A stretch of 64,000 nucleotides of DNA from positions 51,089-115,088 of the forward strand of contig JAFSBX010000039.1 in assembly GCA_017437065.1 (NCBI GenBank), read 5' to 3'. A program made the translations under genes and the position numbers. Below the pieces are notes generated by a model. The model worked only from the letters and a program-made list of their open reading frames with translations. It searched no databases and was not told where the DNA came from. This DNA comes from Lachnospiraceae bacterium. GTDB lineage: Bacteria > Bacillota > Clostridia > Lachnospirales > Lachnospiraceae. Shown here piece after piece: positions 7,143 through 49,359 of this stretch (its first letter is position 1; every line of letters starts with the position of its first letter).

Positions 7143-7688
7143 TTATGCTACTTCAATAAACGTAGTCGCGTTGGACACTTTTATCTGGGTATCCAACTCT
7201 GTCAGAAGTGTACTGCGTTTTTCTTCCAACATTTCCAGCTTCTTTTTAACATCTAATGGGTCCACGAGTTCTGTAGTATTCTCTTTCACATATGCATCCA
7301 CTACACCCAAAGGCTTTTCATCCTTTGTCTTTGTGTCCTTTCCAAGAATACTCAATCGCATCCCCTCAGCGGTTGATTGTAGCTGACTATTTTTCAAATC
7401 ACAAAACCGAACCCGCTCATTATATTCGCTTTTCAATTTATCCTGAAGCTTTCCTTCAAAATCCGCCTCACCCTCGTATGCACCTAAGCCGCGAAGTCTG
7501 CTTCTAAAAGATATTGCTCCGGCGACAGTAAAGGTTCCATAAGAAGTAATAATTTCCGTTCTTGCATTGGAATCTACAATTGCAGCATCAATCTTTTGAA
7601 ATCTATCAATCAAGTCAATAATCTGCTGATATGCAGACTCCGCTTCCCTTGCATATTCCTCTTTACCGATTCGTTTTGCATAAAGCAA
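7143..7688 (-). CDS. Uncharacterised alpha-helical protein, start uncertain
   Basis: The frame encodes up to ~181 residues rich in Glu, Lys and Leu, with helices at both ends (EEYAREAESAYQQIIDLIDRF; DVKKKLEMLEEKRSTLLTELD) around a middle part with SYGTFTVAGAISFRSRLRGLG. I do not recognise the family. The first possible start is a TTG at 7688 with no ribosome site. The open frame continues upstream (VDGDESRLLYAK) into the end of the HTH relic, so the real 5' end may be missing. Confidence 0.45.
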   Translation of the reverse strand: MLYAKRIGKEEYAREAESAYQQIIDLIDRFQKIDAAIVDSNARTEIITSYGTFTVAGAISFRSRLRGLGAYEGEADFEGKLQDKLKSEYNERVRFCDLKNSQLQSTAEGMRLSILGKDTKTKDEKPLGVVDAYVKENTTELVDPLDVKKKLEMLEEKRSTLLTELDTQIKVSNATTFIEVA

Positions 7689-7705
7689 TCGGCTTTCATC
7701 ACCAT

Positions 7706-7981
7706 CTACGCAACCCGCTTCTTGTTTAACTTTGTATAATAGGAATACATTCTCTGATAATCCGAATTATTCATTTCAGAAGAAACATCCGGCACCATAA
7801 CCGACCGGTTTCCACACACCATTGCATCTATCGGCAATTCAAATAACTCACTAAGTGCATACAAATTATCAATCGTCGGCATACTAAGACCGTTTAACCA
7901 ATGATACACACTCTGCACACTACCAAGCCCAAGGTACTGCTGGACATCCTTTCTATATTTCCTCAGGGTATCTTTTATCTT
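7706..7981 (-). pseudogene. XRE-family regulator lacking its N-terminus
   Basis: The open frame reads RKDVQQYLGLGSVQSVYHW and then LNGLSMPTIDNLYALSELFELP, a clear XRE helix-turn-helix with its recognition helix, ending about 45 residues later with KLNKKRVA. The frame closes upstream at a TAG inside the last codons of the AMP-ligase gene, and no start codon or ribosome site remains. About 20 N-terminal codons are missing. The 3' end of the cellulose operon seems to have been joined into this gene. Confidence 0.6.
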
Positions 7982-9402
7982 CTAATAATTTTCCCCATAG
8001 AATTTTTCTCTAACGGATGATTACTGAATTGTATTTCTTTTATTTTATGGGAAGGTGGTAAAGAGCGATTCATCACACGTACATGTTCTTTGATTATTTG
8101 TTCCGCATCCTCTCTTTTTTTCTCTCCTCCACAGAACACTTCTGCTTTCACAGCGTCATCCTGTCCAAATACACGGCACTCTTCCACCAGCTCACATCTA
8201 TACAGGTCATTCTCCAATTCTTCCGGACATACATTTTCACCATTTGATAAAATAATCGTATTTTTTCTTCTGCCCTTTACAAACAAATAACCTTCTTCAT
8301 CAATCTCTCCCAAATCTCCGGTATGAAGCCAGCCTTCCTCTAACACCTTAGCAGTTTCTTCCGCGTCATTGAAATAGCCTTTCATGACATTTCTTCCTTT
8401 TACAAGAATCTCACCATCCTGAATCTTAACCTCACAAAAAGGGGCTACTTTTCCGCATGCTCCTTTTTTGTATGTTCCCTCTCCGGACACAGTCCCTGTA
8501 GTTTCCGTCATGCCATAGTAAGTTTTTGGAGTAATTGATGCATTCTCCATCCGCTGAATCAGATCTCCATCCATAGGTGCCCCTAAACACAATGCTTCTT
8601 TTATACTATTACAGGCCCCTTTAAATTCTTCTGATTTTTCACATTGCCCCAATACTCTTTTCATCATTGCCGGAACTAAAATCAACTTATCAATATGATA
8701 TTGCTGAATGTCCCTGATTAAATACTTGGCATTACTGATATAAGTCAGATTCCCACGCATCATATCTTCAAGCAGGGGAATAATTCCGCTGATATGATAA
8801 AAGGGTAACAGCAACAGACTGTTTTGCGGTGACTCCTGCTCCCATTCCAATACTCTCCGTGGAAAGGCACACAAATTTTCATTGGTTATTTCCACAATTT
8901 TACTAATACCACTTGTCCCGGAGGAAAGCAACATCAAAATCACATCTTCTGCTGCTTCACCGCTTTCTTCTCCAATACTCTCGGGCTGCTCTAAAATTTT
9001 TTCAAAGCTTTCTCCCATTGACAAAATCGGTATTTCCAAATTCTTTTCTGTCAGACCTGTTATGTATTCCTCGTCACATATTACTTTTGAAACCGCAGCC
9101 TTTTCCAAAAACTGGCATAACACATCATCAGCATAGGTATGATTTAAGGGCACTACAATATTTTCAGAACAGATAATGCCAAAAATCATCACCAGATACG
9201 CATAGGAATTTTCACCAACAACTGCTATACGCTGTTTTTTCCTCTCACCCATATTCTGCCTGAAAAAATGCTCTGCCTTCTTTACATGTTGATAAAATTC
9301 TTCAGCTTTTATAACACATTCTTCTCCCGATTTTATAAAGCCAAAAGAAGCTGTACCATAAAATCTGTTTGCATAATCCTTTAACAGGTGTGAAATTGTC
9401 AT
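7975..9402 (-). CDS. AMP-forming acyl/aminoacyl ligase (DltA-like) of the cellulose operon
   Basis: This 475-residue ANL-superfamily enzyme activates a carboxylic acid with ATP and passes it to a thiol. Motifs are complete: P-loop SSGTSGISK (160-168), YGMTE (296-300), TGDLG (361-365), GRRKNTIILSNGENV (hinge) and a catalytic lysine near the C-terminus (MGKIIRR). The start ATG overlaps the carrier-protein gene by four bases, so ligase and carrier are made together, as DltA and DltC are. I infer that it loads the carrier with the group that the MBOAT protein at the start of the operon transfers to polysaccharide. The substrate (acetate, another short acid, or an amino acid) cannot be read from the sequence. 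It is the last gene of the operon. Confidence 0.85.
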   Translation of the reverse strand: MTISHLLKDYANRFYGTASFGFIKSGEECVIKAEEFYQHVKKAEHFFRQNMGERKKQRIAVVGENSYAYLVMIFGIICSENIVVPLNHTYADDVLCQFLEKAAVSKVICDEEYITGLTEKNLEIPILSMGESFEKILEQPESIGEESGEAAEDVILMLLSSGTSGISKIVEITNENLCAFPRRVLEWEQESPQNSLLLLPFYHISGIIPLLEDMMRGNLTYISNAKYLIRDIQQYHIDKLILVPAMMKRVLGQCEKSEEFKGACNSIKEALCLGAPMDGDLIQRMENASITPKTYYGMTETTGTVSGEGTYKKGACGKVAPFCEVKIQDGEILVKGRNVMKGYFNDAEETAKVLEEGWLHTGDLGEIDEEGYLFVKGRRKNTIILSNGENVCPEELENDLYRCELVEECRVFGQDDAVKAEVFCGGEKKREDAEQIIKEHVRVMNRSLPPSHKIKEIQFSNHPLEKNSMGKIIRR

Positions 9403-9638
9403 CCTTTTCTCTCCAATATTGTATTTACTTCATATGCAATATCTTCTACAGTTTCAACATTGCTCAAAATCTTTTCCGGAATTTTAATTCCAAAAGCAGA
9501 CTCTAAATTGTTTAATAATTCATAAAATTCCAGAGAACTGATTCCCAATTCATCTTCCATCAATGTTTCAGGAGTAACCTCCTCCACATCCATTGTTTCT
9601 TTTACAATTTCAATTACTTGTTCTAAAATTTCTTCCAT
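9399..9638 (-). CDS. Acyl carrier protein of the cellulose operon (DltC-like)
   Basis: This acidic 79-residue protein has the size and pattern of a carrier protein. The attachment motif is ELGISSLEFYELL, with Ser35 as the likely 4'-phosphopantetheine site (the usual DSL is SSL here). GGAGGAAG precedes the ATG. It lies 80 bases after the GH5 gene and overlaps the ligase gene. Within the operon it would carry the activated group from the ligase to the membrane acyltransferase. Confidence 0.85.
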   Translation of the reverse strand: MEEILEQVIEIVKETMDVEEVTPETLMEDELGISSLEFYELLNNLESAFGIKIPEKILSNVETVEDIAYEVNTILERKG

Positions 9639-9718
9639 TTTTCTTCCTCCAACTTTATTACTTGCTGTTATTATCAGCTTTTTAACTCACAACATATCTT
9701 CTTTTCTTTACTTTTTAA

Positions 9719-10867
9719 TTACTGTTCTTTATTCTCCATCATAGACTGCATCATAAACCAGCCTCCGGGAGTCATATCTTCTTTCGTCCAGCCACTCAGC
9801 TTATCACAATCACTCAATATCATGCTGTGAGCCTCCGCTTTATTGGATAACGACCAGCCACACCAGCTTATATCATGTTTATCCATATATTCTACAAATT
9901 CATATGCCTGCTCTGGGTATAATGACTCATCTTTATAACTGTCAATATTTGTATCATCCCTGTCGCCATAGGAAATTCCCCATTCACTGACAAATACCGG
10001 AAACTCTGCTTCTATTGCTTCTTTCAGCCTGCCATTTTCAAGTTCTTTATCTTTAGACACATCAATATATTTATGATAAGCATACATTATATTATCATAC
10101 TCTAACGGTCTCTGTACAGCCTCCGACAACTCTGTACAATAATCCAGTGTCCCTACTATAATTACTGCTTCCGGTGAATTAGCACGAATTACAGGAATTA
10201 CCCTGTTTGCATACTCCCTGATGTCTTCCCATGTAGTGCTGCCATTTGGTTCATTACATATCTCATAGATGATTCCTTTATTTCCGGCATAATGAGCAGA
10301 TATCTGTTCAAAAAATGAAACTGCTTCGTCTGCATATAGCAATGGATTCTCGTCACGCAATACATGCCAGTCCACGATTGCATACATATCCTGTGACAGT
10401 ACATTTTCAATGGCCATATACATATATGTTTCATTTTGCTGACTTTCATAAATATATCCACCATCCTGATCTGTATACATGGCAATACGAAATACATTAG
10501 CACCATATTCTTTTAAGGTACTCATAGCAGCTGCATTGGTGTACTTCGGATACCAGTTCAGACCATGACTGCTCATTCCCCGCAAAGTCACCGTTTCCCC
10601 TGATTCAGACAACAGCTTTCCGTTTTTCACGGAAAGCTGTCCATATGCCCTCACTCCGTTTCCCGGATTCGTCAGCACTTCTATTTCCTCCTGCATGGAT
10701 TCTACCTGTTCCTCCAATGAAACATTTTCCTGCTGAAGTGACGTTATCATCTCTTCCTGCCTTGCCACTTCAGCCAATGATTTACACCATCCTGTCACAC
10801 AAACTATACATATGCCTCCAAGAATACACTTTACAAAAAGATTACCTACGTTTCTTTTCCTTTGCAT
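9719..10867 (-). CDS. Membrane-anchored GH5 endo-beta-1,4-glucanase (CcsZ/BcsZ-like)
   Basis: A hydrophobic anchor (residues 10-27), then a coiled-coil stalk (about 36-66), then a GH5 catalytic domain from about 75. The acid/base is Glu206 in IYEICNEPNG and the nucleophile Glu295 in FVSEWG; RGMSSHGLNW and DWHV are also typical of the subfamily that includes clostridial endoglucanases. The gene overlaps the end of bcsA by 26 bases and has its ribosome site inside it. Cellulose operons usually carry such a hydrolase to trim or release nascent chains, and that is the likely role here, outside the cell at the membrane. Confidence 0.92.
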   Translation of the reverse strand: MQRKRNVGNLFVKCILGGICIVCVTGWCKSLAEVARQEEMITSLQQENVSLEEQVESMQEEIEVLTNPGNGVRAYGQLSVKNGKLLSESGETVTLRGMSSHGLNWYPKYTNAAAMSTLKEYGANVFRIAMYTDQDGGYIYESQQNETYMYMAIENVLSQDMYAIVDWHVLRDENPLLYADEAVSFFEQISAHYAGNKGIIYEICNEPNGSTTWEDIREYANRVIPVIRANSPEAVIIVGTLDYCTELSEAVQRPLEYDNIMYAYHKYIDVSKDKELENGRLKEAIEAEFPVFVSEWGISYGDRDDTNIDSYKDESLYPEQAYEFVEYMDKHDISWCGWSLSNKAEAHSMILSDCDKLSGWTKEDMTPGGWFMMQSMMENKEQ

Positions 10868-13115
10868 TCGAACTCCATCCCTTGACTACTTTCATAAACT
10901 CTTTATTATCCACAAGTGCTTCCCAATTTGTGATTGCATAAACATTTGGATTGATATCGCTCTGTTCACAGTATAATTCATATGCACTTCCCGGGAATAA
11001 TGTCAGTTTCGCCGGTAAACTTCCTTCTCCTACTGCTGACAAACGTACAAACTCAAAGTTGTAATTCTCTAATAATACTTTATTTCCATCATTCAGCTCA
11101 CAGGTCTCATTTACCATAATTCTTGCTGTCTGTCTGCGTGAACTTTCCGCAACCTCGGTTCTCTTAGATAAGTTCTTTACAATATCACCAAAATAACTGG
11201 AATTTTTACTCAGTTTTTTCGGCAGAGTATGTTCTCTGTCATAAATAATCTGCAGATATTCCTGTCTGTTCTTTTCATCCATTTCAGAAACAACTACACA
11301 GTATTTCCATTTTCCTGCCGCCGCCTTTTTTACAGTTACAATATGTCCTGTTACTTTTGCATAGTATTCATTATACTGAATATAAAAATCTGCTTCCTTG
11401 CCTTCTTTATACGGCAGATAAATTGCATCGTCAAGTTCTAACGCCAAACCGCCTTCTGAAATATCTACTACATTACCATGATATACTTTTCCTTCGTACT
11501 GTACTTCCACCGGAAGATTTACGCTAAATCGTTCTGTCAGTCTCTCACTCTTTCTTCCAATCATAAAGAAAATTGACATAATCAGACTGGAGGAATTAAT
11601 GATTAACCAATATATAACTATCACGGAACCAAATGCTCTGTACAGGAACAAATCTTTTATCATAATAATCAGTGCATAAATACATAATACTAATAATACC
11701 ACATGCGGTAATGCCATATAAGCATTGTTGTTCTGCTGAACCTTTGCCTTACCTGTTACATGAAACTCTTTTTTACGAATAAACAATGTTTCTGCCCAAA
11801 TTGGAAGTAACATATATGGGAAAATAGTTGTATCAATAATATTACTCCATCTGGTATTTCGAATGTCTCCTGAAATCTTTTTTAAGGTAATTCCGTAAAG
11901 TACATAAGACGGTAACCATATCAGTATAAGCTCCTTGAAATCACATATTACAACCGGAATATCAAACAATACAAAAAGAATCGGTGACAAAATATATAAA
12001 AACCTTCTGGTAAAACTTCCCCAGTAAATTCTGCATGAAAAATATGCCAGCTTTAATTTAAAGTTAAACTTCGGACTTAAAAGTATATGTACACGTCTCA
12101 GAGAATAAATACATCCTCTTCCCCAACGCTCTCTCTGCTTAATCAGACTGTTAATTGTAATCGGTGCCAGACCTTTTGCCAATAATTTATCAACGGCATA
12201 ACATGTATAACCCTTACTTTCAATCAAAAGTCCTGTTTCAAAATCCTCGGTAATAGTACCGGTACGAATTCCGCCCACTTCTTCCAATGCCTCTCTGGAA
12301 ATCACGGTATTAGATCCTGCGTAAATTGGTGCATTCGCACGGTTTTTACCAATATTTACCTGACGGAAGAAATAATCCTGCTCATTAGGAATCTGTCCTT
12401 CACTATATAAGTTATACTGGAACAAATCCGGATTATAAAAGGACTGCGGTGTCTGAATGAATCCGATTTTGAACTTTTCATCAATCTCATCCGGTGTTCT
12501 CTCTACCCACTTACCATTTTCATCCTGCTTCATCTTCGGTAAGAAGAAGTATGGTACAGTTTCCATTAAGAAATCACTGTTCGGAATCATATCCGCATCG
12601 AAAGTTACAATCAATGGTGCATTTGTCTTTCCGATTGCATTATTAAGATTACCTGCTTTCGCAAGTTTATTATCACTTAATCCAAAATAATTTACATGTA
12701 ATTTATCTGCCAGTGCCTTAATTTCCGGGCGATTGGTGTCATCACATATGTGAATATGTACTTTTCTCTTATCCGGATATTTCATTCTGGTACATGCATT
12801 AACTGTCTTAAATAATAATTCTTCCTCTTCATTATGCGTTGCAATCAATACATCTACTTCCGGATACCATTCCTCAGGTATCTCCGGCATAGGCGGTGTA
12901 TACTGACGGTTCAAATCCCAGTAATGAACCAGTGCCTCTATTACAGAAATTGCTTCTGCAACAATCAGACAAATACCTGCAATAAACGCAACCCATCCAT
13001 ACACACGATAATCCGGCAGTGTACGAAGTATTCTCCACCCCAGATAAATGATTAAACATGCCACCGTCAAAATTGACAATGCCACCGAAAACCCTTTTTT
13101 GCTTTTCTTTTTCAT
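10842..13115 (-). CDS. bcsA: Cellulose synthase catalytic subunit with PilZ domain
   Basis: A 757-residue GT2 processive glycosyltransferase. Two N-terminal membrane helices (about 10-30 and 38-60) precede the catalytic domain with CDD (125-126), DAD (173-175), TED (289-291) and QRERW (327-331), the full set for UDP-glucose-dependent beta-glucan polymerisation and translocation. Further membrane helices lie at about 370-520. A PilZ domain follows: RKSER (521-525) and DISEGG (551-556) are the c-di-GMP contacts. A second C-terminal region of about 140 residues (640-757) has no domain I can name. No separate BcsB is visible, as in described clostridial cellulose operons. A cyclase that could supply c-di-GMP lies 11 kb away. 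Confidence 0.92.
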   Translation of the reverse strand: MKKKSKKGFSVALSILTVACLIIYLGWRILRTLPDYRVYGWVAFIAGICLIVAEAISVIEALVHYWDLNRQYTPPMPEIPEEWYPEVDVLIATHNEEEELLFKTVNACTRMKYPDKRKVHIHICDDTNRPEIKALADKLHVNYFGLSDNKLAKAGNLNNAIGKTNAPLIVTFDADMIPNSDFLMETVPYFFLPKMKQDENGKWVERTPDEIDEKFKIGFIQTPQSFYNPDLFQYNLYSEGQIPNEQDYFFRQVNIGKNRANAPIYAGSNTVISREALEEVGGIRTGTITEDFETGLLIESKGYTCYAVDKLLAKGLAPITINSLIKQRERWGRGCIYSLRRVHILLSPKFNFKLKLAYFSCRIYWGSFTRRFLYILSPILFVLFDIPVVICDFKELILIWLPSYVLYGITLKKISGDIRNTRWSNIIDTTIFPYMLLPIWAETLFIRKKEFHVTGKAKVQQNNNAYMALPHVVLLVLCIYALIIMIKDLFLYRAFGSVIVIYWLIINSSSLIMSIFFMIGRKSERLTERFSVNLPVEVQYEGKVYHGNVVDISEGGLALELDDAIYLPYKEGKEADFYIQYNEYYAKVTGHIVTVKKAAAGKWKYCVVVSEMDEKNRQEYLQIIYDREHTLPKKLSKNSSYFGDIVKNLSKRTEVAESSRRQTARIMVNETCELNDGNKVLLENYNFEFVRLSAVGEGSLPAKLTLFPGSAYELYCEQSDINPNVYAITNWEALVDNKEFMKVVKGWSSNAKEKKRR

Positions 13116-13130
13116 ATCACTCTCTCCTCT

Positions 13131-14744
13131 TTACATCCCTCTTGTTTTTCGGTTAATCAAAACAATCATTACCATAAAACCTACTACGAATATGAGTGCT
13201 GCCGCAGATGTCGTCTGTACATCTTTTCCCTGCTCCACCTCTACCACATATTCTGACAGGAAATCATCCATGTATTCATCCAGCCATTCTCCATGTCTTG
13301 TCATCATATCCTTTAACCGGATAATTTCTTCTTCATGGGTTTCTCTGTTTCGGTCAATTACATAGCCTTGCCCTTCTTCAACAACATGAAGCATATGTTC
13401 CTCTTCATAAACAGCTCTCCATCTGCTTCTGTCACGCTTTATCGCATTCCCCAAATAAGAAACAGTATCATCTATAAAGCTCTCTATATACTCTGTGGAC
13501 AAAATAGTTTCTCTCAACTCCGCATATCGCTCGCACACCTGCTCTACGAAAGCCGGATCCTGCACCAGCTTTTCGAACCATGGTCTTAAAATAAATACGA
13601 TATACTCAGCATCTCCGGCCTCCATACTATAATTATCCCAACAGTTGTCATAATCCCACAAAGGTCCCATAGACAGTTTATGTGCATGATCCTGATAGTA
13701 ATATGTAGAGTTATTTCCCGAGTCATAGTTCATAAAGAATTCATTTACTACAAAATAATCTACAAAAGAATCTACATCAATATATTTCGGATATGTTAAA
13801 AATTCTTCATAATCTTCGGAATACAGCACTTTCTCAATCGTAGAAAGCTGTTCTTCCACTCTATGCACCACATCATCCGTCAGTAATTCTTCCTTTGGAT
13901 ATTGAAAAGTAAACCATCCGTAACACAGCTGACTGTCCGACGCCCATGTTGACATTGTCGTTTTGGTCTGATTCCGTCTGTCTCTGCATATTATATAACT
14001 GAGTTGATTTTCATTAGCGTCAAAATCAGCAATATTTACTCTGCCCTCTGCTTTTTTTACTGTTTCAGTTAACAGATAAAGACCACAATAATTATATGTG
14101 TCTCCATCCTTCATAATAACCTCACAAAATTTAGCCTCGGGAGTATATGGGAAAATCTGCCCTCCTATATTATACGCCATATAATTTCTGATACAGGAGG
14201 AATCCAATATACTGTTTGATAACACCCAGTCTTCATCGGCTTCCATACCAAGTACCGAAAGCTCTGATTCCTGTTCATTCTCATCCAACAATTTTATTCC
14301 ATACTGCTTTTTTTCAAAAGTACTGGAACTGGCACCACGAATTTTTATTAATCCATTTGTTTTTAAAGAAGGACTGTCCATAACTGTATTGACATAATTA
14401 TCGTTCTCTATAACGGATATTGTCATTCCAAGCCAGGGATTTGTAATATTCTCATCCTTATAAAACTTGTCAGACATGTCATCATTAAATTCGTATATAT
14501 ACGGAATTTCTTCTCCATTTGTATCAATCACTACCAATGGCAGATGCGATACAAAACTCTCCGGATCTATGGTTCCGTCTTTTGCAATAGTCGTCTCTCC
14601 TATGCTTGAATCTGCCTGACTCTTTTCCTCATGCTGATATTCTCTGACAGACGTCGATACATCAAAATGCACCTTTGAAAATACCATACAAAAAATCCCC
14701 AGCACGATCACTACAGTCAAAGCAGTTACAATTGTTTTTTTCAT
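13131..14744 (-). CDS. CotH-family protein, membrane-bound at both ends
   Basis: 537 residues with an N-terminal membrane segment (8-24), a large outer domain and a C-terminal membrane segment (about 512-531). CotH hallmarks are present: RGASSSTFEKKQY (136-148), VLSNSILDSSCIRN (174-187) and GPLWDYDNCW (360-369). CotH of Bacillus spores is an atypical protein kinase and other CotH proteins act at the surface. In Clostridia it is often encoded beside DUF4956 and VTC-domain proteins, as here. Its place between DUF4956 and BcsA suggests a surface role in polymer anchoring or phosphorylation, but the target is unknown. Confidence 0.88.
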   Translation of the reverse strand: MKKTIVTALTVVIVLGIFCMVFSKVHFDVSTSVREYQHEEKSQADSSIGETTIAKDGTIDPESFVSHLPLVVIDTNGEEIPYIYEFNDDMSDKFYKDENITNPWLGMTISVIENDNYVNTVMDSPSLKTNGLIKIRGASSSTFEKKQYGIKLLDENEQESELSVLGMEADEDWVLSNSILDSSCIRNYMAYNIGGQIFPYTPEAKFCEVIMKDGDTYNYCGLYLLTETVKKAEGRVNIADFDANENQLSYIICRDRRNQTKTTMSTWASDSQLCYGWFTFQYPKEELLTDDVVHRVEEQLSTIEKVLYSEDYEEFLTYPKYIDVDSFVDYFVVNEFFMNYDSGNNSTYYYQDHAHKLSMGPLWDYDNCWDNYSMEAGDAEYIVFILRPWFEKLVQDPAFVEQVCERYAELRETILSTEYIESFIDDTVSYLGNAIKRDRSRWRAVYEEEHMLHVVEEGQGYVIDRNRETHEEEIIRLKDMMTRHGEWLDEYMDDFLSEYVVEVEQGKDVQTTSAAALIFVVGFMVMIVLINRKTRGM

Positions 14745-14801
14745 GTTTTATACCCATTTACGCATTCAAATCAATAGTTAAAAATTACTCATTAAATCAG
14801 T

Positions 14802-15485
14802 TTATCTTGTAATTTCATCATTCTGACATACTAAATTAACAGAATCTACACCATTGATTGCAAATAACATTTCCTTAATATCTTTATCCTGATGTTTTTT
14901 CTTAGCAGCTGCTAACACTGATGCTGACACCTCATAAATTAATTCCACGGAGCTTCTGTCTTCATTGCATACACGGAAGAATGCCTTTCCATTAAAATAT
15001 GAATCTACTGTACTTTCCACTGCAGCTGTACCTTCCTGTCCTCTGACAATGAGAAGATATCTGTCATTATTTCTAACATTACCCAAAAGCAACATTACAA
15101 GAAAAATTACACCTGTTCCGAGTCCTGCTACTATATAGTCACCAATACCACAACAGATACCTGCTGCAATGCACCAAAATATATAAGCTGTATCTCTCGG
15201 ATCTTTTACTGCTGTTCGGAAACGAACAATAGATAACGCACCGACCATACCTAAAGACAGTGCAACATTATTTCCGATAACACTCATTACAAGCGTAGTT
15301 ACAAGTGTCAACATCACAAGTGATACATTGAACTTTGCGCTGTATACACTGGAAGTGTGTGAAAAACGATAAGAGATAAAAATAATTGCTCCAATAATAA
15401 CTGCTGCCACAAAACCGATTACAATTTCCGGTATTGACATGCTTCCACTCTGATTCACTATGTACTGATATAACTCTTCTTTCAT
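14802..15485 (-). CDS. DUF4956 membrane protein
   Basis: 227 residues with about four membrane helices in the first 140 residues, the conserved cytoplasmic segment SIVRFRTAVKDPRDTAYIFW (about 85-104), and a soluble C-terminal domain with an alternating alpha/beta pattern. This is the normal DUF4956 architecture. Its function is not established; the family co-occurs with VTC-domain and CotH proteins. Here it sits between those two with short gaps. Confidence 0.85.
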   Translation of the reverse strand: MKEELYQYIVNQSGSMSIPEIVIGFVAAVIIGAIIFISYRFSHTSSVYSAKFNVSLVMLTLVTTLVMSVIGNNVALSLGMVGALSIVRFRTAVKDPRDTAYIFWCIAAGICCGIGDYIVAGLGTGVIFLVMLLLGNVRNNDRYLLIVRGQEGTAAVESTVDSYFNGKAFFRVCNEDRSSVELIYEVSASVLAAAKKKHQDKDIKEMLFAINGVDSVNLVCQNDEITR

Positions 15486-15550
15486 AAACTGTTCTCCTTT
15501 TCTCTCAAGTACCCGTTAACTGTACCTGTTATTCCTTTGACTTTTATAAT

Positions 15551-16246
15551 TTACAATCCATATTTCCTTGCACTTACATACTTACTATAAGATTCCTGTG
15601 TTACATCACACAAACTCAGTGCATCCTTTATATAACTCAATAAAAAATGGTTATACTTCACCTCAAGTACCACCTTATTCCTACTCTCAACAGGAATCAG
15701 CATGGCAAGTGAAGGATTAAACAAATCAAAATTCCCTTCCGTGGAAGCTATCTCGCTGTCAAAAGTAATACGAATATTATTCGTCGGCACTGCAAATGCC
15801 TGCCGCTTATACTCTACAATACATCTGGGTAAATATACTTCTTTTCTGAATATATAATAAATATCCTGCGCCAGTGCTTTGTCCTTTTCCAAAAGAAACT
15901 CACAGTTCCCTTTGATAAGCATTTCAGCTTCCTTTCTGGTAATTGTCAATGACTGTTTTCTCTGGTTATCCCCCGACTTTTGCTTCAACTCAAGCTTTAC
16001 CGTGTCGGTCTTTGTATCGTAAATCCGTAATCGGATTTTCTTTCGATCCTTGATTCCTGCCAGCTTATCAAAATAATCATCATTATGATAAGAATCAAAG
16101 TACAGAGAACGAACCGTATATGTTTCATAACCATTCATGTCATCTCCCGGCAGAATCTGCTTTAACTTCCAATAAAGCCTTTCTGCTTCTTTCTTCGAAA
16201 TGACATACTTTTCCTCTACTCTGCTTACATCCAATTGTTCTGCCAT
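15551..16246 (-). CDS. VTC-domain protein (polyphosphate polymerase-like)
   Basis: 231 residues covering one VTC catalytic tunnel domain. It shows EEKYVISKKEAERL near the start, VRSLYFDSYHNDDYFDKLAG (about 46-65), RKKIRLRIYD, VKLELKQKSG, CIVEYKRQAF and VVLEVKYN, which supply the ring of basic and acidic residues that bind phosphate and metal in yeast Vtc4. A free-standing VTC domain in bacteria is probably cytoplasmic; whether this copy makes polyphosphate or another phosphorylated product is not known. The stop of the upstream gene is two bases away, so it is tightly coupled into the operon. Confidence 0.85.
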   Translation of the reverse strand: MAEQLDVSRVEEKYVISKKEAERLYWKLKQILPGDDMNGYETYTVRSLYFDSYHNDDYFDKLAGIKDRKKIRLRIYDTKTDTVKLELKQKSGDNQRKQSLTITRKEAEMLIKGNCEFLLEKDKALAQDIYYIFRKEVYLPRCIVEYKRQAFAVPTNNIRITFDSEIASTEGNFDLFNPSLAMLIPVESRNKVVLEVKYNHFLLSYIKDALSLCDVTQESYSKYVSARKYGL

Positions 16247-16248
16247 AT

Positions 16249-17502
16249 CTACTCCTCACTCTTTTGCTGTATGGTTGTATTCTCTTCTTCACTTTTAAAG
16301 AACGGGAATCCTTCATCAACAAAATTATCAATCGCCAATGCCACAAATATATAATTGTACTCTTCTTGTGCAATTCGCTCTTCCACTGTTTCTTCATCAA
16401 CATACAGCGACCACATTAAATCAATCTGACTGCACATAGGTGCCATAAACACTGCAATCGGAGAAGAATAAGAATCTCGGATAAACAGCATTTTTGCTCC
16501 GTCCTCTTTCTTCTCATTGACAATTTTGTCCCCCAGACATATTCCCTGCAGATAACTGTTGTTCATTTCTCTTTCATAAGCATCCTCATATGTCAGATAT
16601 TTTTGACTGACTAATGATTTTAATGTATCTCCATGCTTTGTAAATGGTTCTCCTGTACGATAATAACCTGAATACGTATATTTTGTATCAAACTTAGGAT
16701 ATATATAGGTATAATCATCCAGTCCTGCATATTCTACTCCTGTTTCACGCCCTTGTGAACCCAGATAAATCTTTTCATGCTTTTCCACTACATAATTATT
16801 CATATCCATATAATACCCTGTGGAATCTAAATCATCACCGTACTTCTCTTTCAAATGCTCCAGTACCACACCGGTCGAATAAAAAGCCGTCGGTACCGTC
16901 CAGTGATGGTCTGTTTTATAAAAGATATCTTCCATTGACATATCCGCTTCTAAAAAGACCTCTCTGAAATCAATATAATCCACATTATATCTGCGCATAT
17001 ACAATAATACCGAATCAGCGTATTCATTCAGATTATTATACGGAATACCATAATATCCGTCCGACCATTCTTCATTATATTTTGTAGGATACATGATGCA
17101 GACTACCTTCGTTCCTTTATCAGCCACTGCATCCTGCAATCTGCGGACACGCAATGCCAGTTCCCTTGCATCCACATTCGAAGTATTCCAGAAATTTCCT
17201 GAATATAAAAATCCATTCTTGTCCCGTACATAGGTAAAATTGTTCTCTTCATTTTTTCCTAATGCTTTATGTACCGAACCATACAGTTCATTCCAATAAT
17301 GTCCTCCCACAAGATGATCTGTCAGAAATCCGTCCATTTGTCCCGTAAAGCCCTGTAAGTCTTCTATATTTTCCGGTAATCCGACTTCATTAATCTCGTA
17401 CAATATATTATCGTATTCCCACATAATATTATTAATCGAAAAACTGATTAACATTGAAAGAAAAATAAATGCGAATACCTTTTTGTACATCTTCGTCTTC
17501 AT
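16249..17502 (-). CDS. DHHW/AlgX-like protein for polysaccharide acylation (CcsI/DltD analogue)
   Basis: One N-terminal membrane anchor (about 7-25) then an extracellular domain with YKTDHHWT (DHHW at about 198-201) and a serine motif RDSYSS (about 342-347), the SGNH-type catalytic elements of AlgJ/AlgX proteins. These proteins pass an acyl group from an MBOAT partner to polysaccharide on the outside. I chose the ATG at 17502, with AGGAG eight bases upstream; an in-frame GTG at 17511 is too close to that site. The gene follows the MBOAT gene directly. Confidence 0.85.
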   Translation of the reverse strand: MKTKMYKKVFAFIFLSMLISFSINNIMWEYDNILYEINEVGLPENIEDLQGFTGQMDGFLTDHLVGGHYWNELYGSVHKALGKNEENNFTYVRDKNGFLYSGNFWNTSNVDARELALRVRRLQDAVADKGTKVVCIMYPTKYNEEWSDGYYGIPYNNLNEYADSVLLYMRRYNVDYIDFREVFLEADMSMEDIFYKTDHHWTVPTAFYSTGVVLEHLKEKYGDDLDSTGYYMDMNNYVVEKHEKIYLGSQGRETGVEYAGLDDYTYIYPKFDTKYTYSGYYRTGEPFTKHGDTLKSLVSQKYLTYEDAYEREMNNSYLQGICLGDKIVNEKKEDGAKMLFIRDSYSSPIAVFMAPMCSQIDLMWSLYVDEETVEERIAQEEYNYIFVALAIDNFVDEGFPFFKSEEENTTIQQKSEE

Positions 17503-17516
17503 TCCACACACTCCTG

Positions 17517-18962
17517 TTAAAAGTTAAAATAGATAAACGGATTGTAGCCACCTTTTGCCAACACTGACAAGCTAAAAATTACCAATGCAAGCATACCTGC
17601 TACATAACATATGTGATAAACACCTTTTATCCGTTTTCCATGTGCAGCAGTATCTACTCTTTCTTCCAAATATTCTCTTAAAGGCAACGCAAACAGAATT
17701 GCAGATACAAGAACAATTCCATACTCTTTCAAAAACATAACTGCTGTAGGACTGTAAAAACCGTTCCCCGCCAGACCAAATAAATCCTGCATATATACAA
17801 TCAACTGAGCATTGTCCTCACACCGGAATATAACCATTGCAATCATAACTACAAAAATCACATAAATATGACGCAAAACATTATGTCCTTCAATCTGCTC
17901 AATCTGAATCAGATTCTCTAACACGATGAATACAAAGAAGAACAATCCCCACCATATAAAGTTCCACGCTGCACCGTGCCAGATACCGGTTAACAGCCAC
18001 ACAATCAAAAGATTACGCAACATCCTGTCCTGATTTTCTCCCTGACCTCCCCCCAACGGCTTATACACATACTGATTAAACCAGGTTGCCAGAGAAATAT
18101 GCCATCTTGCCATAAACTCCTTAATCGACTTACTGACAAAAGGATATCGGAAGTTTTCCGGAAACGTAAATCCAAACATCATTCCCAACCCGATTGCCAT
18201 ATCTGAGTATGAGCTGAAATCATAATATAACTGGAAAGTATATGCCAATGCTCCTACCCATGCAAGCATTACCGGAACTTCTACCACTGTACTTCCGTAA
18301 TTTGTCAGTTCAAATATATTGTCAGCCACGATTGCCAGATTGTTGGCTAACAATATTTTCTTTAACAACCCTTCCACAAAACGGCATACTCCGTTTGAAA
18401 TCATATTCCAGTCAGATTTTCTATTCAAAATTTGTTTCTGCACTGTTGTGTACCGTACAATCGGTCCTGCCACTAACTGCGGGAAAAAGGATATATAGAG
18501 TCCAAGGTGAAGCATATTCTTCTGCGTCTGCGCCTTTCCACGGTATACATCAATCACATAAGACAATGCCTGAAATGTGAAAAAAGATATACCAATCGGT
18601 AACCTGATTTCCGGATCCTGCAATACCTGCTCTCCAAACATGGAATTAATAATTTCAATAAAAAATCCGGTGTATTTGAAAATTCCAAGCACTCCTAAAT
18701 TAGCAATGCATGCTACAATCATAAAGACCTTACGCAGTCGTTTGTTATCTCCACTTCTATGAATCGCCAATCCCAGCAGCCAGTTTACTATAATGGAACC
18801 GAGCATTATAACCACATATATAGGTTCTCCCCATGCATAAAAAAACAAACTGCCGGCTAACAGCCATAAATTTTGCAATTTTCTTGAAAATGCCAAAAGA
18901 TAATACACTATAAATACAACCGGTAAAAAATACAATAAAAATGTAATACTAGAAAATACCAT
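17517..18962 (-). CDS. MBOAT O-acyltransferase (AlgI/DltB/CcsH-like)
   Basis: 481 residues with about ten membrane helices. MBOAT motifs WHISLATW (287-294) and GIWHGAAWNF (326-335) place the catalytic histidine at residue 329; LPIGISFFTFQ and GPIVRY are also typical of the AlgI/DltB group. Proteins of this group take an acyl group on the inside and deliver it across the membrane. It is the first gene of the nine-gene operon, with AGAGGAG before its ATG and a clear promoter upstream. Confidence 0.92.
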   Translation of the reverse strand: MVFSSITFLLYFLPVVFIVYYLLAFSRKLQNLWLLAGSLFFYAWGEPIYVVIMLGSIIVNWLLGLAIHRSGDNKRLRKVFMIVACIANLGVLGIFKYTGFFIEIINSMFGEQVLQDPEIRLPIGISFFTFQALSYVIDVYRGKAQTQKNMLHLGLYISFFPQLVAGPIVRYTTVQKQILNRKSDWNMISNGVCRFVEGLLKKILLANNLAIVADNIFELTNYGSTVVEVPVMLAWVGALAYTFQLYYDFSSYSDMAIGLGMMFGFTFPENFRYPFVSKSIKEFMARWHISLATWFNQYVYKPLGGGQGENQDRMLRNLLIVWLLTGIWHGAAWNFIWWGLFFFVFIVLENLIQIEQIEGHNVLRHIYVIFVVMIAMVIFRCEDNAQLIVYMQDLFGLAGNGFYSPTAVMFLKEYGIVLVSAILFALPLREYLEERVDTAAHGKRIKGVYHICYVAGMLALVIFSLSVLAKGGYNPFIYFNF

Positions 18963-19001
18963 ATTGCTCCTCTATCTCTTGAATTTATTAATTTTTTATA
19001 A

Positions 19002-19030
19002 ATACTATACCTAACAGTACCAAACGTCAA
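19002..19030 (-). promoter_or_regulatory. Promoter of the cellulose operon
   Basis: On the minus strand TTGACG (19025-19030), 17 bp, then TAGTAT (19002-19007), or TATAGT (19004-19009) with a 15-bp spacer. The MBOAT start codon is about 40 bases downstream. No riboswitch-like structure is visible in this short leader. Confidence 0.55.
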
Positions 19031-19051
19031 GAATAATATATATTTTCCGAC

Positions 19052-19083
19052 AATTCTAACATATATATTTTACTTAATTCTAA
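19052..19083. repeat. AATTCTAA direct repeat upstream of the cellulose promoter
   Basis: AATTCTAA occurs at 19052-19059 and 19076-19083, 24 bp apart and 22 bp upstream of the -35 box. Direct repeats about two helical turns apart are the usual layout of LytTR-type operators, and a LytTR gene lies next door. Sequence is AT-rich, so chance is possible. Confidence 0.35.
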
Positions 19084-19184
19084 TTTTTTCCAACTTAAAA
19101 TACATTCTATACATCTAAAATCTTCTCCATCATCAAATTCCGTTTATAAAATAATACAATTTTCTACATTTTTTGATTTTCTTG

Positions 19185-19214
19185 CGTGAAATGCACACAT
19201 ACTTCGCGAAATGC
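19185..19214. repeat. CGYGAAATGC direct repeat, 20-bp period
   Basis: CGTGAAATGC (19185-19194) and CGCGAAATGC (19205-19214) are direct repeats exactly 20 bp apart, two helical turns. They lie between the LytTR gene and the cellulose operon, about 155-190 bp upstream of the predicted -35 box. Confidence 0.45.
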
Positions 19215-19255
19215 AAAAAAATCCCAAACCATCTTCATCATCAATAGTTTGAGAT
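19215..19255 (-). terminator. Terminator after the two-component operon
   Basis: On the minus strand ATCTCAAAC (19247-19255) pairs with GTTTGGGAT (19221-19229) with one G-T pair, and a run of seven T follows. It lies 45 bases past the LytTR stop and separates it from the cellulose operon promoter. Confidence 0.65.
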
Positions 19256-19299
19256 ATCTTTTTCCAATTATATACTTATAATTTTATATACTTATAATT

Positions 19300-20016
19300 T
19301 TATATCCTATAATCTTTCGTATCAAATTTCATATACGCCAACTGAAATGCCTTCCATCGTCTTCTTGAAACCGGAATTTTTTCACCATTTACAAGTGTTA
19401 AAATCTGATGTTCAAAATTTGCCACTTGCGTCATGTTTACCAGATATTTGCTATGACAGCGGAAAAATATCGTCTCCGGTAAACATTGCTCCCACTGTAA
19501 CAGACTTTCTTCACATAAAAACATATCCGTTCTCGTCCATAGTTCACTTCCGCCGGACTGCGCGGAAAAGTAACTGATATCCTTGATTAAAATATTATGT
19601 GGAATACCACGCCGCATTATAAAAATACTCTCTGTAAGCTGCAATTCCTCCATACTGACCTGAAGATACTCAAACAGCTCCTTTTCCTCAACAGGCTTTG
19701 TCATAAAGCGAAAAGCTCTTGCTTCATAGCCTTCTTTATAACGATTTTCATAAGCAGTCAGAATAATAACTATCGTGTGCGGAAACTGTTTTTTTATTTT
19801 TTTTAACCAAACAATCCCATCCTCTGATTCATCGCAAAATTCAAGATCCATAAAAATAAGCTCCACCGTTTCATTCTGCATATACTGAAACAATACAGAG
19901 GGCTTCTGAAAATACAAAAAATCACTTTGCAGGCTATTTTTCTCATCAAATTTCTTGATTAATACCCTTAACTCCTCTGAAACTATTTCATTATCATCAC
20001 ATAGTACAATCTTCAT
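19300..20016 (-). CDS. LytTR-family response regulator
   Basis: 238 residues: an N-terminal receiver domain (KIVLCDDNEI with the acidic pair, Asp57 in FMDLEF as likely phosphorylation site, ILTAYENR, MTKPVEEKEL) and a C-terminal LytTR DNA-binding domain (from about 135: MRRGIPHNILIKDISYFSAQ, HSKYLVNMTQVANFEH, GEKIPVSRRRWK). It is AgrA-like. It lies 23 bases after its kinase. Likely targets are direct-repeat sites; two such repeats lie between this gene and the cellulose operon. Confidence 0.92.
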   Translation of the reverse strand: MKIVLCDDNEIVSEELRVLIKKFDEKNSLQSDFLYFQKPSVLFQYMQNETVELIFMDLEFCDESEDGIVWLKKIKKQFPHTIVIILTAYENRYKEGYEARAFRFMTKPVEEKELFEYLQVSMEELQLTESIFIMRRGIPHNILIKDISYFSAQSGGSELWTRTDMFLCEESLLQWEQCLPETIFFRCHSKYLVNMTQVANFEHQILTLVNGEKIPVSRRRWKAFQLAYMKFDTKDYRI

Positions 20017-20039: not shown

Positions 20040-21230
20040 TTAAATAGGAAGATAAATTGTCATAGCAAAAGTATGTTCTTCAATGTTTATTTCACACGTC
20101 CCATTATATTTCTCTAAAACATCTCTGATATTACGTACCCCAAATCCATGATTCTTTCCTTTTTTTTCATTATTACTCTGTGCCGGCATACTGTTGGACA
20201 CTATGATGGAAAAATATTTCTTTCCACCGGAAAAATGAATGTCAATCTGTGGCTCCAAATTGTTGCCAATGCATTGATTTGCCGCGGTAATGGCATTGGA
20301 AAGTAAATTAGAAAACAAAGTACACATATCTATATCCGAAACCGTCTCTATTTTAGGCAGGGTACCATATGCTGTCAGCTTTACTTCCTTGGCACAATAA
20401 TGCGGCACATCATGATTCAAGATGGCGTCTACGATTTCATTTCCCGAATAATACTTTTTCTCAGAAAACGAAAAGGCTTTTTTATAGTCCTCAAAGTATT
20501 TTGATAAATCATCCATATTTCCTTTATCCAGAAGCGATTCCATGCAAATAAAATGATTTTTTACATCATGCCTGAATTTACGCAATTCTGTATCAAGAAG
20601 CTCCATATCCTGATAATACTCTAACTGCTTCTCCAGCAAAATCACGTTTTCTTCCGTGCTTTCCTGTGCCCGAATCAAAAAACGCTCTACAGAATACACA
20701 ATAACTATAATGCAAATCGCCGTAAGCCAGTAAATCATAATCCGATACGCAATAATTTCCCCTACATCCCTGTCTGCCAATGGCAAAAATGCTCCCGGAC
20801 GTAAAAAATGTGCTATCAGCAAAGAAATAAAATACAGTATCGTATTTAAAACCATAAGTTTGCTGTCAAACAAAAAAGTAAGAATTGCAAAAAACAAAAA
20901 AGTACATTCCCACAAATGTGAAGACGGAAATAAATAAAGCAACACATTATACTGGATAAATAAAATAGTAACCGTATAAGCTTTTACATATCTCAGATGC
21001 ATCGGAATATAAGAATCGTCCTTCCAATTTTTCCATATAAAAAATAAAGCAATTCCTAAATAGACAAACTGACTGCAATCAAACAACAAAATATGTAACC
21101 ATGACAAATTCGGATAAAATCCCAATGACTTAAGCGTCGAAAAATATATCCCTGCACACATACAAAAGCCGGGAACTAAAAGTAATACATATCGATAAAC
21201 CGATGTCCAGTATTTTTTTATAACATTCAT
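20040..21230 (-). CDS. GHKL sensor histidine kinase with six-helix sensor (AgrC-like)
   Basis: 396 residues. About six membrane helices (15-185) form the sensor. The phospho-accepting His221 lies in FRHDVKNHF, followed by an N-box (LLSNAITAANQ) and a G-box (GFGVRNIRDVLEKYNG) of a GHKL ATPase. The architecture matches AgrC-type kinases that pair with LytTR regulators, and its regulator follows directly. The sensor is clearly homologous to that of the divergent chemoreceptor: LGFYP (36-40), IQYNVLLYLFP (92-102) and DSKL (122-125) align collinearly with it. Ligand unknown. Confidence 0.9.
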   Translation of the reverse strand: MNVIKKYWTSVYRYVLLLVPGFCMCAGIYFSTLKSLGFYPNLSWLHILLFDCSQFVYLGIALFFIWKNWKDDSYIPMHLRYVKAYTVTILFIQYNVLLYLFPSSHLWECTFLFFAILTFLFDSKLMVLNTILYFISLLIAHFLRPGAFLPLADRDVGEIIAYRIMIYWLTAICIIVIVYSVERFLIRAQESTEENVILLEKQLEYYQDMELLDTELRKFRHDVKNHFICMESLLDKGNMDDLSKYFEDYKKAFSFSEKKYYSGNEIVDAILNHDVPHYCAKEVKLTAYGTLPKIETVSDIDMCTLFSNLLSNAITAANQCIGNNLEPQIDIHFSGGKKYFSIIVSNSMPAQSNNEKKGKNHGFGVRNIRDVLEKYNGTCEINIEEHTFAMTIYLPI

Positions 21231-23133: not shown

Positions 23134-24174
23134 TTAGCAGATAATCTGATTTTTCCCATTCTGCTTTGCCTGATATAATTTGTTATCCGCACTTATAATC
23201 AGCTCATCTACCTTCTTCTGACTGCTATACACCTCTAATCCGCCACTAAACGTAACCGAGATATGCTTTTCTCTTTGAAAATGTGTTTCCAGCTGAGTGG
23301 CTACATTATGAAGTACCTGCAATGCCTCCTCTTGATTTTCATGGTCATAAATTATCATGAACTCTTCACCACCAAATCTGGCTGCAAAGCCCTTTCCGTC
23401 TACTTCCTTGTCCAAAATCTGTGCAAAAGTAGTAAGAACCTCATCCCCAAAGCTATGTCCATATGTATCATTAATACTCTTAAAGTTATCAACATCCATA
23501 ATAACCGCAATAAAACTTGTATGATCCTTTTGTATTCGTTTTTCTATCTCCTTCATCAGATACCCACGATTATACAGCTTCGTTAAAGGGTCATGATTGG
23601 CCAAATAATCAAGCTGTACATTCATGGTATGCAGTTCTTCTTTTTGACGCTCATAGCGCAGGATAACAATATTTAACAAAACGAATACTGCTATGGCAAC
23701 AATAAGATACGAACATATCGTAAACATTAACAAAGATATTTCACTTACGGGGTTAATAGTTTGCGGAAAAAAATGCGACGCTATCATAACAAGAATATCC
23801 CATAAAATTGTCATAACACAAAATGGAACACTAAATTTTCTCGGGAAAAATATTGTAATCCCTAAAATACTCAAAACAAAATAAACCAATATAATACTAC
23901 TGTATACACTATACAAAAACGGAAACTCTATCCACACTACCGTTACCAATATTCCAACGGTGGCCCAGCCCTTATGTTTTGTAAAAATACCCCAAATACT
24001 CAAAATCAAAAGGATAACTCCGCATATAACACATATTTGTGTCGGAAGTGCATTCCCATGCAAAAAGGCATTCAGTAAAAAACCAAACATATTGGCAGTG
24101 CACGCTGCAATTGCCATCACATGAAACAGCTGTGCCTGCATCTCTTTTATAGAGGAAAAATAATTGTCCATCAT
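23134..24174 (-). CDS. Membrane-bound diguanylate cyclase (GGDEF)
   Basis: 346 residues from the ATG at 24174, which has AGAGGAG upstream (a start at 24189 would lack one). Six membrane helices (about 20-175) precede a complete GGDEF domain: DPLTKLYNRGY, MDVDNFKSINDTYGH and active site RFGGEEF (268-272 of this start). The RxxD inhibitory site five residues before GGEEF is KEVD, so product inhibition may be lost. It makes c-di-GMP from two GTP; the nearest likely effector is the PilZ domain of BcsA. No EAL or HD-GYP domain occurs in the window. Confidence 0.93.
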   Translation of the reverse strand: MMDNYFSSIKEMQAQLFHVMAIAACTANMFGFLLNAFLHGNALPTQICVICGVILLILSIWGIFTKHKGWATVGILVTVVWIEFPFLYSVYSSIILVYFVLSILGITIFFPRKFSVPFCVMTILWDILVMIASHFFPQTINPVSEISLLMFTICSYLIVAIAVFVLLNIVILRYERQKEELHTMNVQLDYLANHDPLTKLYNRGYLMKEIEKRIQKDHTSFIAVIMDVDNFKSINDTYGHSFGDEVLTTFAQILDKEVDGKGFAARFGGEEFMIIYDHENQEEALQVLHNVATQLETHFQREKHISVTFSGGLEVYSSQKKVDELIISADNKLYQAKQNGKNQIIC

Positions 24175-24200
24175 ACTGCTCCTCTCCATTTTATGGTACT

Positions 24201-27302: not shown

Positions 27303-27351
27303 AAGCCACCTCCTTACTGAAGTCGGTATACGTTGTTCATCAACTATGCCT

Positions 27352-27380
27352 AGTATACCTTTAATATCTCTAAATGGCAA
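27352..27380 (-). promoter_or_regulatory. Promoter of AAA copy A
   Basis: On the minus strand TTGCCA (27375-27380), 17 bp, then TATACT (27352-27357), about 50 bases before the start codon. A pair of GTATAC hexamers flanks the start-site region and could be an operator. Confidence 0.5.
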
Positions 27381-31675: not shown

Positions 31676-31714
31676 TGTGGTATCCTCGATTCTTCTATAT
31701 AACAAAACCTCTAA

Positions 31715-34659: not shown

Positions 34660-34663
34660 ACAA

Positions 34664-38755: not shown

Positions 38756-38777
38756 ATATTTCCTCAATTCTTAGCAC

Positions 38778-39911: not shown

Positions 39912-39914
39912 AAA

Positions 39915-49274: not shown

Positions 49275-49359
49275 GCGAAAACCTCTCTTCATTTTTTAAC
49301 CCTATTCTATATAAATCCACTAAATAAAACAAATCCTTCAAATTCTATTTGAACATTTC

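Follow-up and report, generated by a model that had tools for sequence, protein, structure and literature searches.

The window analysed here is a stretch of 64,000 nucleotides from a Lachnospiraceae bacterium (assembly GCA_017437065.1, contig JAFSBX010000039.1, positions 51,089 to 115,088 of the forward strand), and the subject is a nine-gene operon at window positions 7975-18962, in which the genes of a cellulose-type synthase are joined by an acyl carrier protein (ACP) and an AMP-forming ligase. These two proteins probably load a custom acid group onto a cellulose-like polymer in place of the usual acetyl group. The initial annotation had described nine tightly packed genes in one direction, and all nine were found, with uninterrupted reading frames, at the same coordinates on the minus strand, with their families confirmed by Pfam; for each gene, the best Pfam family scored above its curated cut-off. 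The genes are listed below in their order, with transmembrane (TM) segments where recognised.

17517-18962, minus strand: MBOAT O-acyltransferase of the CcsH lineage with the fused C-terminal tail YNPFIYFNF (PF03062, 112 bits)
16249-17511, minus strand: SGNH/DHHW acyltransferase, CcsI/AlgX-like, with a GTG start (PF16822, ALGX, 43 bits)
15551-16246, minus strand: VTC-type polyphosphate-polymerase (TTM) domain protein with 0 TM-like segments (PF09359, 140 bits)
14802-15485, minus strand: DUF4956 membrane protein with about 4 TM-like segments (PF16316, 49 bits)
13131-14744, minus strand: CotH-type kinase with TM-like segments at 1 and 509 and the motif WDYD (PF08757, 203 bits)
10842-13115, minus strand: BcsA/CcsA-type beta-glucan synthase with PilZ (GT2 69 bits, PilZ 50 bits)
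9719-10867, minus strand: GH5 endoglucanase, CcsZ-like, membrane-anchored, TM-like segment at 6 (PF00150, Cellulase, 167 bits)
9399-9638, minus strand: ACP with a probable phosphopantetheine site at Ser35 (GISSLEF) (PF00550, PP-binding, 38.5 bits)
7975-9402, minus strand: AMP-forming ligase of the acyl-CoA-synthetase family (PF00501, AMP-binding, 147.5 bits)

The intergenic distances, in gene order, were 5, 2, 65, 57, 15, -26, 80 and -4 bp, the negative values corresponding to an overlap of the GH5 gene with the BcsA gene (26 bp) and of the ligase start with the ACP stop (4 bp). Most starts were preceded by purine-rich stretches. Terminator-like sites occurred at chance level (4 against 4.8 expected in shuffles), and the promoter/terminator scan gave the same picture.

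Motifs were located by pattern search: DDT, DAD, TED and QRERW in BcsA, RxxxR and DISEGG in PilZ, NEP and SEW in GH5, DHH and RDSY in the SGNH protein, WDYD in CotH, SSL at 34-36 in the ACP, SSGTSG, YGMTE, GDL and GKIIRR in the ligase, and RWH, WHG (328-330) and FIYFNF in the MBOAT. The meanings assigned to these motifs are in part general background. The BcsA protein scored 352 bits with the CelA model, under that model's cut-off of 699. The SGNH protein has a single N-terminal TM-like segment and found no match in a PDB sequence search, and the kinase domain of CotH, which has a TM-like segment at each end, probably lies on the outside.

The core of the operon corresponds to the clostridial cellulose synthase (Ccs) locus ccsZABHI (Scott et al. 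2020, PMC7710045; this and the other papers given by PMC number are cited from excerpts). Shared with Ccs, within one operon, are CcsA (BcsA-PilZ), CcsZ (GH5), CcsH (MBOAT) and CcsI (the DHHW protein). The window operon differs in carrying CotH, VTC and DUF4956 genes and the ligase-ACP pair, and in having no recognisable CcsB gene; the main text of PMC7710045 contains no occurrence of CotH, VTC, DUF4956, a carrier protein or a ligase. Judged from the family assignments, no unassigned protein of the CcsB kind (two TM segments, CBM11-like) stands among the nine genes, and the CotH protein has the same two-TM topology as CcsB. The product expected of a Ccs locus is O-acetylated cellulose, but in Romboutsia the product of a related GT2 is (1,3;1,4)-beta-glucan (PMC10374906). 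The make-up of BcsA, GH5, MBOAT and SGNH is of the known Ccs kind, and the ligase-ACP pair is the new part.

The BcsA search gave matches in 28 of 298 other genomes of the family (E to 1e-20), in 7 of 390 other genomes of the class (E to 1e-60) and in 9 of 294 others of the order sample (E to 1e-100; 6 of them new), which yielded 29 + 8 + 8 = 45 loci, several ending at contig edges. Two fragments of BcsA without a locus (G132:C69 and a second piece in G215) stand outside the 45, and a scan of viral contigs with BcsA returned no relative. Gene content was read by phmmer with the window proteins. MBOAT and SGNH were present in 19 of the 45 loci, the trio of VTC, DUF4956 and CotH in 13, and both sets together in 11, whereas a ligase or ACP of the operon's kind was found in none. 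The trio is therefore common in one form of Ccs, and the pair is an addition seen once. The sole ACP match of the survey (L054) clusters with genes of the biotin carboxylase and FabH types and was rejected as a second case of a carrier at a BcsA locus, since it belongs to a fatty-acid synthesis cluster. Full-text searches of open-licence PMC papers returned no paper on combinations of these parts.

One further locus, L040, contains an open reading frame (ORF) of 818 aa at 10903-13356 with an AlgX domain at 532-644, in a trio-type operon where no separate MBOAT was recognised. Its N-terminal half has no Pfam match, and the protein is perhaps a fused acyltransferase.

The CotH, polyphosphate-polymerase and DUF4956 genes have been described as accessory to Pel operons in Gram-positive bacteria (PMC7112168), and the C. 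perfringens locus NELoc-2 likewise holds VTC, CotH and GT2 genes (PMC2879425). In S. intermedius, deletion of the CotH gene or of a gene for an MgtC-domain membrane protein altered the amount of Pel and cut aggregation without abolishing it, and no comparable change is told in the excerpt for the polyphosphate-polymerase gene (PMC12345266). The MgtC-domain gene is taken here as the DUF4956 counterpart; the window DUF4956 protein also has a sub-threshold MgtC match. As with the Pel accessory genes (PMC7112168, PMC12345266), the same three families are contiguous beside a synthase-dependent polysaccharide operon, but in the window the synthase is of the cellulose type. The synteny of the trio was reported as not found outside Pel (PMC12345266), in contrast to its presence in 13 of the 45 BcsA loci sampled, which means that this unexplained set is not tied to Pel. 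The initial annotation had assigned to CotH and VTC a phosphate-related or anchoring step in this operon. That assignment was abandoned: the trio is described in Pel operons, and a role in acylation or anchoring that only this operon would have was rejected because 13 of the 45 loci free of the ligase also carry the trio.

For the ligase, family libraries indicated a position among acyl-CoA synthetases, and the best structure matches were acyl-CoA synthetases and luciferases. The DltA model gave 41.6 and 39 bits, in pieces, against a cut-off of 559.85. In an alignment with a real DltA (L265), Ile204 of the ligase, which follows His203, occupied the column of the Asp of FDLS, the amino-binding residue of DltA. 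As the ligase lacks this Asp, its substrate would be an acid without an alpha-amino group, and D-alanine is unlikely; with no DltA present either, D-alanine was rejected as the acyl group. The genome holds one PF01648 phosphopantetheinyl transferase.

The same family and structure matches would suit a scheme in which the ligase makes acyl-CoA for use by the MBOAT, with the ACP as a by-stander or storage partner. The 4-bp overlap of the ACP and ligase genes and the loss of donor-side basic residues from the MBOAT, described below, argue against such an acyl-CoA route, which we regard as very improbable.

The ligase tree consisted of 35 rows, picked by length and E-value from the fetched loci, plus three DltA-model hits; ORF L324 was not included. 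The window ligase grouped with two ligases of genome G217 on long branches, with support of 96/89 (100/96 with one of them). The G217 stretch that carries these ligases encodes a Wzy polymerase, a flippase, several glycosyltransferases and an AT3 acyltransferase with an adjoining ACP. Among 13 carriers, the one closest to the window ACP, with 43% identity, was the ACP beside AT3 in this G217 exopolysaccharide cluster. A wider contig scan with the ligase was less productive: the best 80 of 242 relatives all showed at most 33% identity in the best segment, and at 79 of these 80 only the ligase was recognised, the other (L144) having a carrier about 5 kb away.

The surroundings of the ligase were read at 32 of the loci with a ligase match. 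Six of these (L098, L099, L100, L102, L258 and L263) hold both an ACP and an AT3 within one cluster; the AT3 of L102 was assigned by phmmer only and the others by PF01757, and as AT3 was sought with two query sequences, further copies may be missed. These clusters resemble the window operon in combining a related ligase, an ACP and a membrane acyltransferase, and differ from it in that the acyltransferase is AT3, not MBOAT/SGNH, and in that no cellulose synthase was recognised. They recur in the same bacterial family, one of them inside a Wzy-type exopolysaccharide cluster, and we know of no name for them. Some ligase loci carry condensation-domain and hydrolase genes instead, as checked by Pfam in two, L104 (in the same genome as the window) and L106. 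The ligase-ACP pair thus repeatedly accompanies membrane acyltransferases, though not these alone. The initial annotation had made its proposal depend on whether such pairs occur as a rule apart from cellulose genes and never with them in relatives, and here the outcome was divided: the pair was absent from all 45 BcsA loci sampled in relatives, while related pairs stand with other membrane acyltransferases at 6 of the 32 loci and in other settings at the rest.

The set had also been described as complete and Dlt-like, which holds for its logic and fails for its kinship. As in Dlt (DltA/DltC/DltB/DltD/DltX), the logical order is ligase, carrier, MBOAT, acyl-Tyr shuttle and SGNH transferase, and the carrier is a separate protein with a phosphopantetheine serine (PF00550). 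Unlike in Dlt, the ligase is not DltA by model and lacks the amino-binding Asp, the SGNH protein is of the AlgX/DHHW type and not DltD, the shuttle peptide is fused to the MBOAT, which is of the Ccs lineage and apart from DltB, and the operon is one for beta-glucan. The DltD family PF04914 had 0 matches in the genome, and a true Dlt operon was ruled out on this basis. The genome has 6 other PP-binding matches and 7 other MBOATs, and no contig with one of these matches also holds one of these MBOATs. Together with the DltD result, this leaves no Dlt system from which the operon could borrow.

The hallmarks of MBOAT-SGNH polymer acyltransferases that were present are the catalytic His (WHG at 328-330), the FIYFNF tail with its Tyr and an SGNH partner with DHH and RDSY. 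An MBOAT with a C-terminal Tyr hexapeptide and an SGNH partner is likewise found in PatAB, AlgIJX and WssHI (PMC12148441). Unlike these systems, the window operon encodes a ligase and a carrier protein of its own; non-Dlt MBOAT/SGNH pathways are stated in the excerpt of PMC12148441 to be without a carrier protein.

Other candidate carrier-fed MBOATs were also encountered. At L303 (genome G393, 7277-10235), an ACP, a MaoC-type dehydratase and a short-chain dehydrogenase are located just before an MBOAT with a fused FIYFQF tail, and perhaps a 3-hydroxyacyl or enoyl group is fed there from the carrier to an AlgI-type MBOAT. L304 has an SGNH-type (GDSL) protein, an MBOAT, an ACP and an AMP-ligase in a row, and L305 is arranged alike, as judged by size and phmmer; the two MBOATs are under the DltB cut-off. 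L306 combines two DltA-like ORFs (one Pfam-checked), an ACP and an MBOAT. Carrier-fed MBOATs outside classical Dlt may therefore be more general than the excerpted literature says.

The window MBOAT ends in YNPFIYFNF, a fused acyl-shuttle tail; the Tyr of the C-terminal tail is acylated in PatA, and acyl-Tyr is also used by DltX (PMC12148441). In a FastTree phylogeny with 12 donor and active-site columns masked, the protein nested in the Ccs clade, apart from DltB, with a local support of 0.885 (0.999 with one further row), and the DltB model gave 139.5 bits against a cut-off of 375. L289, a copy of own_L200, was dropped from the tree, the carrier-set comparison and the unbiased test described below. 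L048 was left out of the comparison of 16 relatives with the window MBOAT, as its tail is absent, and was kept in the other MBOAT comparisons.

The window MBOAT departed at Y275F, W284M, T334N, W376M and M394L, where all other Ccs MBOATs agree (17, then 19 others), while each of the others had 0-3 such sole departures, except L048 with 30. Position 334 is not telling, because Asn also occurs there in three other MBOATs of the same genome. The tryptophans at 284 and 376, conserved in the 19 Ccs relatives, are both replaced, and W284 corresponds, by counting in the alignment, to DltB Trp285, a residue reported to block the donor tunnel (PMC11035591). In addition, the window MBOAT lacks a basic residue at 285 (A285), 296 (N296) and 307 (Q307), positions that are basic in 18, 19 and 18 of the 19 relatives, respectively. 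Of 14 conserved basic positions it has lost 4 (285, 296, 307 and 350), compared with 0-2 in the other 16. The MBOATs of L321 and L323, which were added after the choice of sites and entered the 19-relative comparison only, showed the usual state at each of the eight sites compared. In PatA, the pocket for acyl-CoA is said to be lined by conserved Arg residues (PMC12148441), and the basic residues lost in the window MBOAT may be the equivalents of these.

Among 40 MBOATs for which no carrier was seen, 37 are basic at site 285 and 39 at site 307. In the DltB/carrier-neighboured set these two sites were basic in 2/14 and 2/14, where 10 of the 14 are DltB, 2 of the 14 have no ACP in the flank, the flanks are about 1.5 kb and the Fisher values ignore kinship. 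The window MBOAT shows the carrier-type state at both sites.

L048 (3563-7936) is itself unusual: its Ccs MBOAT, without the usual shuttle tail, differs at 30 of the 107 positions that do not vary among the other members, and the CotH beside it is split into two ORFs.

From the operon packing, the 4-bp overlap, the motifs, the PF01648 enzyme, the lack of a Dlt system to borrow from, the clade with G217 ligases, the six loci with ACP and AT3, Ile204, and the tail and sites of the MBOAT, we infer a carrier-fed acylation, including its reaction steps, the kind of acid and the chemistry of the polymer. The ligase would adenylate a small carboxylic acid, not an alpha-amino acid, and load the acyl group onto the phosphopantetheine arm that the ACP would bear at Ser35. 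The charged ACP would dock at the cytoplasmic mouth of the MBOAT, which would shift the acyl group to Tyr478 in its own C-terminal FIYFNF tail, and the SGNH protein would take it from the tail and esterify the glucan leaving BcsA. GH5 may trim or release the glucan chain, PilZ would render synthesis responsive to c-di-GMP, and the CotH-VTC-DUF4956 module may tune output or adhesion, as in Pel operons.

We lean slightly to the reading in which the ACP receives a non-amino acid from the ligase, and MBOAT and SGNH pass the acyl group to a beta-glucan. A further reading, to which we give slightly less than even odds, is that an MBOAT of the Ccs lineage, with acetyl-CoA as the presumed donor of its relatives, was re-wired to its own carrier and ligase, so that a cellulose-like glucan receives a chosen acyl group which is neither acetyl nor amino. 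The proposal of the initial annotation, a beta-glucan operon with its own ligase, carrier, MBOAT and SGNH protein, agrees with this anatomy and with the tree neighbours of the ligase, which lie in a polysaccharide cluster with ACP and acyltransferase.

Delivery of the acyl group from the carrier through the MBOAT to some other final acceptor, such as a membrane lipid, the anchored GH5, CotH or a cell-wall polymer, was also considered. MBOAT enzymes are known to use lipids and proteins as acceptors. An acceptor other than glucan is nevertheless given a low probability, as MBOAT and SGNH stand beside BcsA in 19 of the 45 other loci, free of the ligase, and the SGNH protein is of the DHHW type, which is tied to polysaccharides (PMC7710045).

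Several observations weigh against carrier-fed acylation of the glucan. The pair was found beside BcsA in one genome only, and the ACP + AT3 set was not recognised at 26 of the 32 ligase-centred loci. No close ligase orthologue was found among 298 other family genomes, the best-scoring match having 38% identity (G217); a partial match of 41% over about 270 residues in G017 (L324) has two ACPs nearby, with no AT3, MBOAT or BcsA recognised. The assembly, of 3.9 Mb and with the window on a contig of 115 kb, is rated 99.98% complete and 5.58% contaminated, although one contig carries the whole operon.

The MBOAT comparisons contributed further such points. When agreement among at least 15 of 16 others was enough for a position to count as conserved, the window MBOAT had 7 departures and the others 1-9, so its overall departure rate is not exceptional. 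As 10 of the 14 members of the carrier-neighboured set are DltB, few events lie behind the contrast at 285 and 307; the carrier-neighboured L291 and L284 keep R285 and K307, and L048, without a carrier, has lost both basic sites. An unbiased test for a DltB-like shift, with L291 and L284 set aside as ambiguous, was negative, with departures at 2/26 discriminating against 2/80 other conserved positions; several carrier-less MBOATs depart as often or more often, and a global DltB-like shift was accordingly rejected. Finally, the hydrophobic residues of DltB that hold DltC (Met302, Val305, Ile306 and Met309; PMC11035591) have no counterpart in the window MBOAT, whose loop reads KPLGGGQG. With the tests so mixed, the residue evidence for carrier feeding is suggestive only.

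In the main rival explanation, MBOAT and SGNH carry out the O-acetylation usual in Ccs, with acetyl-CoA as donor. The ligase and carrier would then be unrelated to it, having landed at the 3' end of the operon, and would serve a different product such as a lipid or a small molecule. Such hitch-hiking would agree with the absence of the pair from the 45 other BcsA loci, with its position past an 80-bp gap and beside a truncated-looking HTH gene, with related ligases in condensation-domain clusters, one in this genome, and with the negative unbiased test. On the other hand, apart from the MBOAT no enzyme of the operon is known to accept a charged carrier, the tree neighbours of the ligase accompany an ACP and a membrane acyltransferase, and the donor-side positions of the MBOAT differ where 19 relatives agree. 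Overall, a hitch-hiking pair is considered rather unlikely. On base composition, the idea that the pair is foreign was rejected, as the GC fraction of the ligase gene is 0.384 against 0.364-0.402 in the other seven genes; that of the ACP gene is 0.304, but this gene is only 240 bp long.

If carrier-fed acylation is the true function of the operon, it would break the rule, stated in the excerpt of PMC12148441, that non-Dlt MBOAT/SGNH pathways have no carrier, and would represent carrier-fed acylation outside Dlt that retains a fused Tyr tail. It would offer a natural system in which the choice between CoA and carrier as donor might map to residues 284, 285, 296, 307 and 376. It would also point to a chemically new bacterial cellulose, in addition to the crystalline, acetyl and phosphoethanolamine forms named in the literature excerpted here.

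Upstream, an AT-rich gap (18963-19299) separates the MBOAT gene from a LytTR gene on the same strand. Two regulatory genes identified by Pfam follow there:

19300-20016, minus strand: LytTR response regulator
20040-21230, minus strand: GHKL histidine kinase

This pair may regulate the operon, and a GGDEF protein encoded at 23134-24189 suits a synthase bearing PilZ. Directly after the ligase, at 7706-7918 on the minus strand, lies an HTH_3 ORF, truncated-looking in that its Pfam match starts only at position 24 of the 55 in the profile. A GH9-type cellulase with a CelD_N domain (50 and 27 bits) is encoded at 29198-31705, some 10 kb upstream of the operon.

Defence-related genes were also noted in the window. 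A Wadjet type II-like set at 33274-41399 on the minus strand comprises JetA2, JetB2, JetC2 and JetD2 by PADLOC, with JetC2 interrupted and split over two ORFs (35522-38767 and 34664-35497). AAA-ATPase_like/PDDEXK_9 proteins are encoded on each side of this region, one at 25743-27380 and one at 47580-49292, and a Fic-domain protein at 4711-5601 matches the PADLOC candidate family PDC-S04 with 379 bits.

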